Source: Enorma burkinafasonensis (GTDB lineage: Bacteria; Actinomycetota; Coriobacteriia; Coriobacteriales; Coriobacteriaceae). From it: a stretch of 64,000 bases of DNA. Both the position numbers and the translations under genes were made by a program. The notes beneath the pieces are model-generated. The model saw nothing but the letters and a program-made list of their open reading frames with translations. It had not been told where the DNA came from and ran no database searches. The stretch covers positions 124,001-188,000 of the forward strand of contig NZ_LR597502.1 of NCBI RefSeq assembly GCF_902150035.1, written 5' to 3'. Positions 12,117 to 17,877 of this stretch are shown here, one piece after another; positions within the stretch are counted from its first letter, which is position 1, and the number at the start of each line of letters is the position of its first letter.

Positions 12117-12130
12117 CGAACACATGTTCT
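12117..12130. promoter_or_regulatory. LexA (SOS)-like box in the hicAB promoter
   Basis: CGAACACATGTTCT contains the inverted repeat GAACA-CA-TGTTC and fits the Gram-positive LexA consensus CGAAC-RNRY-GTTYC except at the last base. It lies between two TATAAT hexamers (12111-12116 and 12139-12144) in an AT-rich promoter, where a repressor would block transcription. The same 14-mer with one change occurs at 16098-16111. Confidence 0.6.
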
Positions 12131-12245: not shown

Positions 12246-12437
12246 ATGAAGTATCGCCTACTGAAGAAGCTTATCACCGAGCACGCTCGCGAACGGGGTC
12301 TAGATGTTGAATGGTCTGAGGGAGCGAATCATATGAAAGTGCGTGTCGGAAGCGTGAAGACGACGATTCCCCGGCATAACGAGGTGAACGAGATAACCGC
12401 ACGCTCCATCCTGCGTTATCTCTTTGGAGGTAGATGA
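12246..12437 (+). CDS. hicA: HicA-like mRNA interferase toxin
   Basis: 63 residues, the normal HicA size. ATG is preceded by AGGGG. The fold pattern MKYRLLKKLITEHARERGLDVEWSEG, then NHMKVRVGSVKTTIPRH, then EITARSILRYL matches the YcfA/HicA double-stranded-RNA-binding-like fold, with the catalytic histidine in GANHMK. HicA proteins cleave mRNA during translation. The stop overlaps the partner's start (ATGA). Lower G+C than the surroundings marks this as an acquired module. Confidence 0.8.
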   Translation: MKYRLLKKLITEHARERGLDVEWSEGANHMKVRVGSVKTTIPRHNEVNEITARSILRYLFGGR

Positions 12438-12814
12438 TGTCCGCTCAAAATGTGCATGCAAAAGTTACACGCAATATGGGCTGGTGGGCCATTTCGGTCG
12501 ATGAGATTCCCGGACTGTTTTCTCAAGCTCGCCGTTTAGATCAGGTTGATGCGATGGTTCGCGATGCCGCGGCGATGCTTGGTTTTGAGGTCGCGAATGT
12601 GGAGATCGTTCCCATCCTTGACGCCGATGCTCAAGAGATGCTCGAGGAGCTTGAGAGGGCTCGTCATGATGCGGAGGAGAAGCAGAGGGCCGCATCCGAT
12701 CTTACCCGTCAGGCAATCAGCCGATTTCGTGGGGAGGGGTTAACGCTTCGGGACATAGCTTCCTTGGTTGGTCTTTCGCAGCAGCGCGTCTCCGTGCTCA
12801 TGAAGGAAGGCTAG
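12434..12814 (+). CDS. hicB: HicB-like antitoxin with C-terminal HTH
   Basis: 126 residues, overlapping hicA by 4 bp with GGAGG upstream. Residues 1-65 form the partial RNase H-like HicB fold (HAKVTRNMGWWAISVDEIPGLFSQARRLDQVDAMVRDAAAMLGF). A helical linker follows (AQEMLEELERARHDAEEKQRAA), then a C-terminal HTH (GLTLRDIASLVGLSQQRVSVLMKEG) that would bind the module's own promoter. HicB neutralises HicA and represses the operon. ATG 12437 is an alternative start one codon later. Confidence 0.75.
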   Translation: MMSAQNVHAKVTRNMGWWAISVDEIPGLFSQARRLDQVDAMVRDAAAMLGFEVANVEIVPILDADAQEMLEELERARHDAEEKQRAASDLTRQAISRFRGEGLTLRDIASLVGLSQQRVSVLMKEG

Positions 12815-15211: not shown

Positions 15212-16012
15212 CTAGATGCCCGTAGCTTTTTCGAGCGGCGACGCCGCTGCTTGGTTCAAGCAGGACAGTAGCTGCTCGAGAATCTGCTGTCGCCGGTTGA
15301 TGAACATCTCCATGACCTGGTAGTGCTCGGTCTCCTCATAAGTGACCTCATGGATGCGCCCGTCATCGAACGAGAGGATGCGGGCGCCGGGCATGCCTAT
15401 CAGGATGGGGGAATGCGTGGCGATGACGAACTGCGCGCCGTGCTGCGCGAGCAGATGGAGCTCGTAGAGCAGCGTGAGCTGGCGCATGGGGGAAAGCGCC
15501 GCCTCGGGCTCGTCGAGCAGGTAGAAGCCGTTGTCGGTGAACGTGTTCTGCACCAGCGCAAGGAAGCTCTCTCCGTGCGATTGCTCGTGGAGCGACTTGC
15601 CACCGTAGCGCGCGTAGTAGATCTCCTTCGGCGTGAGGGATAGACCGTCGTCGCGATACGACTCGGCGGCGCTGGCGACGTTGTAGAAGCTTTCCGCGCG
15701 CAGGAAGTAGCTCGTTTTGGGACGGCGAATGCTCCTGGTGAGGTGGACCGCCTCATGGAGCGAGCCGTGCGAGTCGTACGTGGTGAAGCGGTAGCCCTGG
15801 GAGCCGCCTTCGGCGTTGAGCCCAAAGGCCACCGCCATGCTTTCGAGCAGGGTTGACTTACCCGACCCGTTCTCGCCGACGAACAGGGTGACAGGGGTGG
15901 TGAAATCGATGGGCCTATCGAAGTGGAGGGCGGGGATGCCGTGGGTGTAATCGCCGCTTGGGACGACATCCCAATCGATGGAGACACGGGTGATAAACGG
16001 CTGGATGTCCAT
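15212..16012 (-). CDS. AAA/ABC-type ATPase (single-domain, RecF/OLD-like)
   Basis: 266 residues. Walker A is GENGSGKST near residue 45, the ABC-signature-like segment is HEQSHGESFLALV near 143, Walker B is GFYLLDEPEAALS near 162, and the switch histidine is in IATHSPIL near 198. No zinc hook or coiled coil is present, so it is not full-length RecN or Rad50; this compact class is often called AAA_21. It is divergent from the DUF1848 gene, and the LexA-like box at 16098-16111 lies between the two. A role in DNA or RNA quality control is inference only. Confidence 0.82.
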   Translation of the reverse strand: MDIQPFITRVSIDWDVVPSGDYTHGIPALHFDRPIDFTTPVTLFVGENGSGKSTLLESMAVAFGLNAEGGSQGYRFTTYDSHGSLHEAVHLTRSIRRPKTSYFLRAESFYNVASAAESYRDDGLSLTPKEIYYARYGGKSLHEQSHGESFLALVQNTFTDNGFYLLDEPEAALSPMRQLTLLYELHLLAQHGAQFVIATHSPILIGMPGARILSFDDGRIHEVTYEETEHYQVMEMFINRRQQILEQLLSCLNQAAASPLEKATGI

Positions 16013-16097
16013 GGCGCCTCCTTTGTTCGCGCAGTTCCATCATATTCTGCGGTGCGGACATGGTTGTGGCTCGGGTGCCCCAATGTGGGAATGATGG

Positions 16098-16111
16098 CGA
16101 ACAGATGTTCT
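16098..16111. promoter_or_regulatory. LexA (SOS)-like box upstream of the DUF1848 gene
   Basis: CGAACAGATGTTCT, inverted repeat GAACA-GA-TGTTC, differs at one position from the box at 12117-12130. It sits 9 bp before TATAAT (16121-16126), in the spacer region of that promoter, and also about 85 bp upstream of the divergent ATPase gene. Confidence 0.6.
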
Positions 16112-16120
16112 TACTATTGG

Positions 16121-16126
16121 TATAAT
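16121..16126 (+). promoter_or_regulatory. -10 box (TATAAT) for the DUF1848 transcript
   Basis: A perfect TATAAT, in the context GGTATAATCGAC, lies downstream of the LexA-like box. The resulting 5' leader would be about 220 nt and contains the palindromes at 16173-16311. Confidence 0.55.
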
Positions 16127-16172
16127 CGACATGAAAGTGAGAGGTTTATGGCATGGCTGCGTACGAGAGCCC

Positions 16173-16263
16173 CTGGTAGTGGTGGGTAATTTGCATATTT
16201 TGCAAATTACCCATCTTGGCATTTCTGCTGGTAGTGGCCAGTAATATGCATGTTTTGCATATT
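16173..16263. repeat. Two direct repeats, each with a TTTGCA-type palindrome
   Basis: CTGGTAGTGG followed by a palindrome occurs twice, exactly 55 bp apart (16173 and 16228). The first palindrome is TGGGTAATTTGCA-N5-TGCAAATTACCCA (16183-16213, 13-bp arms); the second is AATATGCA-N5-TGCATATT (16243-16263). The gap 16013-16354 otherwise has no gene. Confidence 0.75.
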
Positions 16264-16284
16264 GTTCATGTCGTATAGGCCTTC

Positions 16285-16311
16285 CAGTTGTCGCGCAAAT
16301 TGCGACAACTG
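16285..16311. repeat. Palindrome just upstream of the DUF1848 gene
   Basis: CAGTTGTCGC (16285-16294) and GCGACAACTG (16302-16311) form perfect 10-bp arms around GCAAATT. It could be an operator or a leader hairpin; no T-run follows. Confidence 0.65.
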
Positions 16312-16354
16312 AACTAATGAAACGCTGAAGCCGTGATGGGGGAGGTGGGCGCGC

Positions 16355-17311
16355 ATGATCATCAACACTGGCGGGCGGACGGATACCGTGCAGTATTACA
16401 CGGACTGGCTGCTCAGGCGGTTTGCCGAGGGCTACGTGCTGGTGCGGAACCCGCGCTTCCCGGAGAAGGTCACGCGCTACGAGCTCGACCCGTCGGTGGT
16501 GGACTGCGTCGTGTTCTGCTCGAAGAACTACGCGCCCATCCTTTCGCACCTGCACGAGATCACGGACCGCTTCAACACGTATTTCTTCTACACCATCACC
16601 GCGTATGGGCGCGACATGGAGCCCGGGGTTCCGGATGTCGATGCGAGTATCGAGACGCTTATCGAGCTCGAGCGCATCGTAGGGCGCGAGCGGATCGTCT
16701 GGCGCTATGACCCGGTGCTCTTAAGCGAGCGCTACACCACGGAGGCGCATCGGCGCACATTCGACGATATGGCCCGCCGCCTGGCGCCGCATGTGAGCCG
16801 CTGCGTGTTCAGCTTCGTGGAGCCGTATCGAAAACTCGACCGGAACATGCCCGAGCTTTTGCCCCTTATGGAGGAAGAGCGCATCTACATGGCGGAGCTT
16901 TTGGGCGGCATCGCGCGCGAGCGCGGGCTACGCTTGCAGGCGTGCGCGACGCGAAAGGATTACTCCGCTTATGGCATCGCACAGGCGGGCTGTGTGACCC
17001 TGGAGGCGCTCGGCGCGGCGAACGGCGTCACATGCAGGCAGCTCGCACATCGCGGCATGCGTGAGGGCTGCGCCTGCATGGAGATGCGCGACATCGGGGC
17101 GTACAACAGCTGCCCCAACGGGTGCCGGTATTGCTATGCGAACGCCGACGCTCGCGGAGCGGCGAGGGCGTTTCGCGACCAACACGACCCGGAGTTCCCG
17201 CTCATGCTGGGGCATCTCATGCCGGGTGATGTGGTGACGCAGGCAACGCAGCGGAGCTACCTTGCGGCGAGAGCACGGGCGGCTGCGGAGCAAGAGCGGC
17301 TTGAGCTGTAA
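16355..17311 (+). CDS. DUF1848 family putative radical-SAM-like protein
   Basis: 318 residues, ATG behind GGGGGAGG. The opening MIINTGGRTDTVQYYTDWLLRRF and VRNPRFPEKVTRYEL are characteristic of DUF1848. FCSKNYAPILSHL and YFFYTITAYGRDMEP follow, with a C-terminal cysteine cluster at about residues 237-262 (CACMEMRDIGAYNSC, then CRYCYAN). The family is thought to bind an iron-sulfur cluster and is related to spore-photoproduct-lyase-like radical SAM proteins; its reaction is unknown. The LexA-like box upstream suggests DNA-damage control. Confidence 0.85.
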   Translation: MIINTGGRTDTVQYYTDWLLRRFAEGYVLVRNPRFPEKVTRYELDPSVVDCVVFCSKNYAPILSHLHEITDRFNTYFFYTITAYGRDMEPGVPDVDASIETLIELERIVGRERIVWRYDPVLLSERYTTEAHRRTFDDMARRLAPHVSRCVFSFVEPYRKLDRNMPELLPLMEEERIYMAELLGGIARERGLRLQACATRKDYSAYGIAQAGCVTLEALGAANGVTCRQLAHRGMREGCACMEMRDIGAYNSCPNGCRYCYANADARGAARAFRDQHDPEFPLMLGHLMPGDVVTQATQRSYLAARARAAAEQERLEL

Positions 17312-17396
17312 GACGGCGGTGTCCGCGTGCAACGATCGCCCGTGCTGGGGTACACGTTGGACGTGACCACAACGTGTCCTGCAGAAGGAACCGACC

Positions 17397-17768
17397 ATGA
17401 AACATCAGTGCAAGGTGACGGTGCTCGAGACCAAGTGCTTCCCTGAGTTGCAGGAGCGCTATCTGGCGGATCCGGCGAGCGGGCCGCGCCCGTGCTTTGC
17501 GGTGGGGTAAGAGTATCTGTTCGAGCGCGAGGACGGCAAGGACGACTTCTGGCACTTCGGGCGCGATCTGGACCCGAAATTCCCCTGCGCGGAGGCGTGG
17601 GACTGCATCAGCCGCTATATCTACACGGCCATGCAGGGTGGTTCCATCATGCACGGCTGGACCGCGGACGACCGCATGATGATTGCCTGCTGCAACGACG
17701 GCACGCGCCCCGTGGTGTTCAAAATTGAGCGCATTGACATCCCCGAGACGGACGCCGAGCGCGCCTAG
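17397..17768 (+). pseudogene. TIGR04076 family gene interrupted by an in-frame TAA
   Basis: ATG 17397 behind AGAAGGA opens MKHQCKVTVLETKCFPEL, and the frame runs to TAG 17766-17768 (123 codons). It includes the family's FPCAEAWDCISRYIYTAMQGG and MMIACCNDGTRPVVFKIERI. Codon 38 is TAA (17508-17510), in the context CFAVG-stop-EYLFERE, where relatives have GQE/F-type residues, so a CAA to TAA change is the simplest explanation. The rest of the frame is intact, so the decay is recent or the stop is a sequencing error. The function of the family is unknown. Confidence 0.75.
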
Positions 17769-17877
17769 CTCGTCGAGCAGGATTTCTCCAATAGCACGGA
17801 GGACGCGTATACGGGAGCGTAGGGGAGCGACAGCCAGGCCCTTTAGGTCGGCTGCATCGGGGTTAACCGTAGGCAGG

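Follow-up and report, generated by a model that had tools for sequence, protein, structure and literature searches.

The DUF1848 gene studied here lies in a 64,000-nucleotide stretch of Enorma burkinafasonensis DNA (the window, meaning the whole stretch that was analysed) and is preceded by a LexA-type box. DUF1848 proteins of Coriobacteriia form two subfamilies that differ in their N-terminus, NTG (MIINTGxRTD), to which the window's protein belongs, and SAS (MIISASRRTD). Control of the NTG DUF1848 gene by LexA, as part of the SOS response, is well supported by sequence comparisons, and on balance we favour the view that its product is an SOS-induced enzyme of the radical-SAM type that repairs DNA lesions. 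No paper on DUF1848 by name was found in the literature searched. The features of the locus are as follows.

12117..12130, plus strand: second LexA-type box CGAACACATGTTCT, ahead of a HicA-like/HicB-like pair (12246-12814); same regulon, outside the DUF1848 unit.
16098..16111, plus strand: LexA (SOS) box CGAACAGATGTTCT, which overlaps the would-be -35 position; the E. massiliensis version is CGAACAAATGTTCC.
16121..16126, plus strand: -10 element TATAAT, by direct reading; TATACT at the same place in E. massiliensis.
16127..16354, plus strand: 228-nt untranslated leader with three hairpin-forming inverted repeats (fold z -3.84), conserved in E. massiliensis.
16355..17311, plus strand: DUF1848 protein of the NTG subfamily, 318 aa (PF08902, E=1.8e-92, whole profile).
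17111..17134, plus strand: CX3CX2C codons (C253, C257, C260), proposed [4Fe-4S]/SAM site, invariant in 43 relatives.

As originally predicted, the box ahead of the full-length DUF1848 gene is nearly identical to a second one, CGAACAGATGTTCT at 16098-16111 and CGAACACATGTTCT at 12117-12130. The predicted range, 16098-17311, begins with the box, ends at the stop codon and takes in the 243 bp that separate the end of the box from the ATG. At two mismatches or fewer, CGAACAGATGTTCT has three matches in the 64 kb, and shuffled sequences gave 0.25 on average. A search for the LexA DNA-binding domain found a single LexA in the genome, whose CGAACN4GTTC sites include ones before recA (37 bp), ruvC (37 bp) and lexA, all three named from their sequences. 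Upstream of lexA, two exact boxes (AGAACGGATGTTCG and CGAACAGTTGTTCC) and a near-box (CGAACAAATGTTTG) are arranged in 28-bp steps. Since the same motif precedes lexA, recA and ruvC, it is, as judged from sequence, the LexA box of this organism. CGAACN4GTTC totals 24 matches over both strands of the genome against 33 for the reversed control, that is, no excess, and the sites were therefore judged by their position and not by their number. In the other Coriobacteriia sampled, this box or near-boxes likewise lie ahead of lexA, frequently spaced in steps of some 28 bp, and in several genera one half-site of the lexA box reads GTAC. Two or three LexA boxes with this regular spacing of about 28 bp were often observed at lexA in the class (L025, L203, L204, L207-L209, L212, L215, L222).

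The box was then looked for before the DUF1848 genes of other Coriobacteriia, as the original prediction had proposed, and it was not absent from these relatives. An exact GAACN4GTTC site lies within 300 bp upstream of 12 of the 47 intact NTG genes of the class, where about 0.1 was expected (background of the same loci 0.25% per locus; p 3e-21, a nominal value that, like all p-values for the box, treats species as independent). None of the 24 SAS genes of Coriobacteriia has such a site; this subfamily shares PF08902 and the C-terminal cysteine motif with NTG, and differs from it by its SASRRTD N-terminus, by W-T in place of C55-S56 and by this lack of the exact box. When the GTAC variant seen at lexA was allowed, the counts became 17/47 for NTG, 1/22 for SAS and 0/46 outside the class, the first figure being less strict than 12/47 because the variant was admitted after near-boxes had been seen. 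Most other NTG genes are without a box, 30 of the 47 in the class having no recognisable one. Among 24 half-sites (same letters or complements), GAAC alone exceeded one in NTG genes (11 and not 12, one gene having dropped out through its start-codon frame), and its signal was restricted to a spacing of 4. The distance from box to ATG ranges from 28 to 256 bp, and in the genus and family of the window the box is found at all four intact DUF1848 genes. Outside Coriobacteriia, no exact site was found within 500 bp of any relative's gene, the exact matches at L029 and L074 belonging to Coriobacteriia. In a gene tree made by a quick method, box-bearing genes are spread over several separate positions, the box label having to change 7 times, of which 6 are imposed by branches with good support; the caveat on species independence is thus answered in part. 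The SOS control originally predicted for DUF1848 is therefore retained for several lineages of the gene tree across Coriobacteriia, and it concerns one subfamily in one class, not the whole family.

The neighbourhoods of NTG DUF1848 genes give independent support to a role in repair. A TIGR04470 radical-SAM gene lies 3' of DUF1848 at 8 loci (near full-length, with one further fragment), Fpg/MutM is found downstream at 4 loci and in partial form at one more, and L037, L043 and L051 have an HhH-GPD glycosylase gene downstream. At L037, DUF1848, TIGR04470, Fpg and HhH-GPD follow one another in this order and in one direction. These neighbourhoods belong to clostridia, spirochaetes and, within Coriobacteriia, a single genome (L117); the window's own DUF1848 gene has no repair neighbours. 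Three Thermoplasmata loci have an endonuclease III-like gene downstream, in the opposite orientation. TIGR04470 (radical SAM mobile pair protein B) is also SPL/Rv2578c-like and differs from DUF1848 in being a canonical radical-SAM protein (PF04055); it is absent from the window's genome. Its namesake partner, TIGR04471 (mobile pair A), was not found adjoining NTG DUF1848 genes, and identity of DUF1848 with TIGR04471 was rejected, since NCBIfam models gave no match up to E 10.

In clostridia, spirochaetes and L117 of Coriobacteriia, a MarR regulator gene lies 5' of DUF1848 at 7 loci, and three loci of this kind contain a nitroreductase gene; a remnant is seen in G002, a genome of the same genus as the window. 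The regulator seems to be MarR outside the class and LexA in part of Coriobacteriia, so that the gene looks re-wired. In G002 (L177, 3840-4600), the MarR gene continues directly into the latter half of DUF1848, which looks like what a deletion left of a MarR-DUF1848 operon. We also observed macrodomain-like and SIR2-like genes, named by eye, together downstream of DUF1848 in several Coriobacteriia (L138, L143, L147).

The window's protein matches PF08902 with 310 bits against a curated cut-off of 30.5, over positions 1-262 of 262. The C-terminal CX3CX2C motif, which is common to the NTG and SAS subfamilies, is followed by a helix (266-276). An AF2 model built with 43 relatives reached a pLDDT of 89.8 and a pTM of 0.88, and Foldseek matched it to SPL with probability 1.00 (E about 3e-3). 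In VIA-align, the 13 best matches were all radical-SAM proteins (RlmN, PFL-activating enzyme, radical-SAM methyltransferase, SPL; a moderate Z of 8.9-9.4, over only 160-184 aligned residues), with other TIM barrels close behind at Z 8 (isopropylmalate synthase 8.8). Residue 1 of the model is aligned with residue 134 of SPL, 71 of PFL-activating enzyme and 171 of RlmN, and their CX3CX2C motifs we take to lie at about 90-97, 29-36 and 125-132, respectively; the structural match thus begins past the cysteine motif. Because the barrel part matches from residue 1 while CX3CX2C sits at the C-terminal end, the simplest reading of the model is that DUF1848 would be a circular permutation of the radical-SAM core. 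Sequence profiles neither support nor refute this permutation. In native order, nothing scored over the cut-off of the radical-SAM profile PF04055; a Pfam scan of permuted DUF1848 gave PF04055 at E 0.007-0.03, on the motif only and below threshold; and hhalign of normal and permuted DUF1848 against TIGR04470-type proteins gave equal scores with the cysteine motif alone aligned, the target profile being thin (7 sequences). None of the solved structures searched by sequence was a believable relative of DUF1848.

SPL/SplB (COG1533) is among the known systems closest to DUF1848: the DUF1848 model aligns with its radical-SAM-type barrel (VIA-align Z 8.9-9.0), CX3CX2C is found in both, and LexA control, reported for splB, is predicted for NTG DUF1848; the two differ in the order of barrel and motif. 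Residues 1-198 of DUF1848 match residues 134-341 of SPL, and CX3CX2C of DUF1848 stands at 253-260, whereas the SPL order has the cysteine motif ahead of barrel strands 2-6; significant sequence similarity between the two is limited to the cysteine motif. The catalytic H-donor cysteine of SPL is C140 in the 4fhc entry. The likeness to spore photoproduct lyases and the putative iron-sulfur cysteines of the original prediction are thus upheld in part by CX3CX2C and by the predicted fold, with the qualifications that the motif is C-terminal and that the match covers only the part of SPL after its motif. Radical-SAM genes of the SplB kind are known to belong to the SOS regulon of Bacteroidetes as well as of alpha- and beta-proteobacteria (PMC8565304, PMC3323433; also PMC3765255), and LexA control of splB has been reported (PMC8565304, PMC3323433). 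By analogy of box, context and fold, NTG DUF1848 may work like these SOS-regulated SplB-like genes, as a candidate that departs from the SPL motif order.

SOS control alone is no proof of repair, since in this genome boxes also precede hicAB-like and higBA-like pairs and a rhuM-like gene. Besides the HicA-like/HicB-like pair, which was named by eye and in whose second gene a Pfam scan detected nothing but a sigma-70 region 4-type helix-turn-helix, the boxed genes include, again by eye only, a Y-family polymerase-like frame (L007), a HigBA-like pair (L016), a RhuM-like gene (L010) and a modification-enzyme-like gene (L023). These toxin-antitoxin-like genes, together with the reverse transcriptase-associated DUF1848 of PADLOC, make our main rival an SOS-induced defence or stress module that modifies or senses nucleic acid or a metabolite and carries out no DNA repair. 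The PADLOC model RTasDUF1848 (DRT-associated) shares its domain with the window's protein (E 7.4e-35), and DUF1848 is patchy and mobile, being present in 5 of the 67 genomes of the family and 75 of the 398 of the class, with distant copies carried by plasmids and by phage contigs. However, no reverse transcriptase came to notice in the neighbourhoods that were read, nor was one seen adjoining the window's gene, and the SPL-like fold and the clusters with Fpg, HhH-GPD glycosylase and SPL-like genes outside the class argue against such a module, which we regard as unlikely. The repair role of the original prediction is therefore kept on the strength of the gene clusters and the radical-SAM-like fold, not of SOS control alone, and its extension to the whole family was too broad.

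Three rhuM-like (Fic/Doc-ending) genes of the genus (L198, L199 and L201, from G002, G004 and the genome of the window, the last at C16:112040-112530) each carry a palindromic coding stretch with a LexA-type box some 470 bp ahead of it, and from this sequence arrangement rhuM may be SOS-controlled too.

Less probable still is a genuine LexA site combined with an enzyme whose target is not DNA but, say, RNA or a small molecule, and which is induced as part of a general stress response. Among the best fold matches are indeed two enzymes with RNA as their substrate, RlmN and Cfr, and one with a protein as its substrate, PFL-activating enzyme, and MarR control with a nitroreductase in some operons would fit a response to chemical stress; against this stands the recurrence of DNA glycosylase and SPL-like neighbours.

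The box lies between DUF1848 and a divergent AAA-ATPase gene (15212-16012, minus strand), and is nearer to the start of the latter (86 bp), which has weak RecF/SMC-like P-loop similarity. Control of the ATPase gene instead of DUF1848 is nevertheless very improbable. TATAAT is on the plus strand, and a -35 element at 17-bp spacing from it would, by direct reading, coincide with the box. In E. massiliensis the box, the -10 element and the leader are all kept before DUF1848 although the divergent gene is not the same, and elsewhere, in further genera, it accompanies DUF1848 amid varying, unrelated neighbours. The box therefore most likely belongs to DUF1848. Two of the three inverted repeats of the leader lie within a 36-nt tandem repeat (16173-16208 and 16228-16263), and an Rfam search of 15900-17500 at E 1 gave no match. 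The repeat region (16165-16330) carries AT-rich palindromes of the GGTAATTTGCATATTTTGCAAATTACC type, also conserved in E. massiliensis, and about 24-40 bp of the leader resemble the rhuM coding stretch 'ELVKEGN(L/M)HFLQIAS', which would be either scraps of rhuM or a site common to both. Directly 3' of DUF1848, a short ORF for a conserved-looking protein (17398-17770) has an in-frame TAA at about 17508-17510 and is probably a pseudogene. Finally, a chance match of the box, with DUF1848 free of SOS control, has next to no probability: GAACN4GTTC, with two sites seen against 0.62 expected, is only mildly unusual within the single window, so that the weight of the motif comes from the genome and the relatives, where its recurrence is far above background and is accompanied by half-site and spacing controls.

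Under the favoured reading of SOS-induced repair, LexA bound to the box that overlaps the -35 region would keep the promoter shut. Upon DNA damage, RecA-stimulated self-cleavage of LexA would open it and induce the gene. We infer that the product would be a radical-SAM-type enzyme that has the post-motif barrel strands first and the CX3CX2C [4Fe-4S]/SAM motif last, an architecture like a circular permutation of an SPL-like core. Its most likely role would be to mend, through radical chemistry, a photoproduct or a damaged base in DNA, in the manner of the SplB-type SOS genes elsewhere. More tentatively, the NTG branch as a whole might be a radical-SAM family, circularly permuted, that would reverse a DNA lesion directly and was repeatedly recruited to the SOS regulon of Coriobacteriia, acting in clostridia and spirochaetes with an SPL-like TIGR04470 partner and base-excision glycosylases.

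DUF1848 is widespread, and the recurrent LexA box together with the glycosylase and SPL-like clusters point to a specific and testable role in the response to DNA damage. If the permutation is true, the radical-SAM enzymes would gain a rearranged architecture, and anaerobic gut bacteria possibly one more way of reversing DNA lesions directly.
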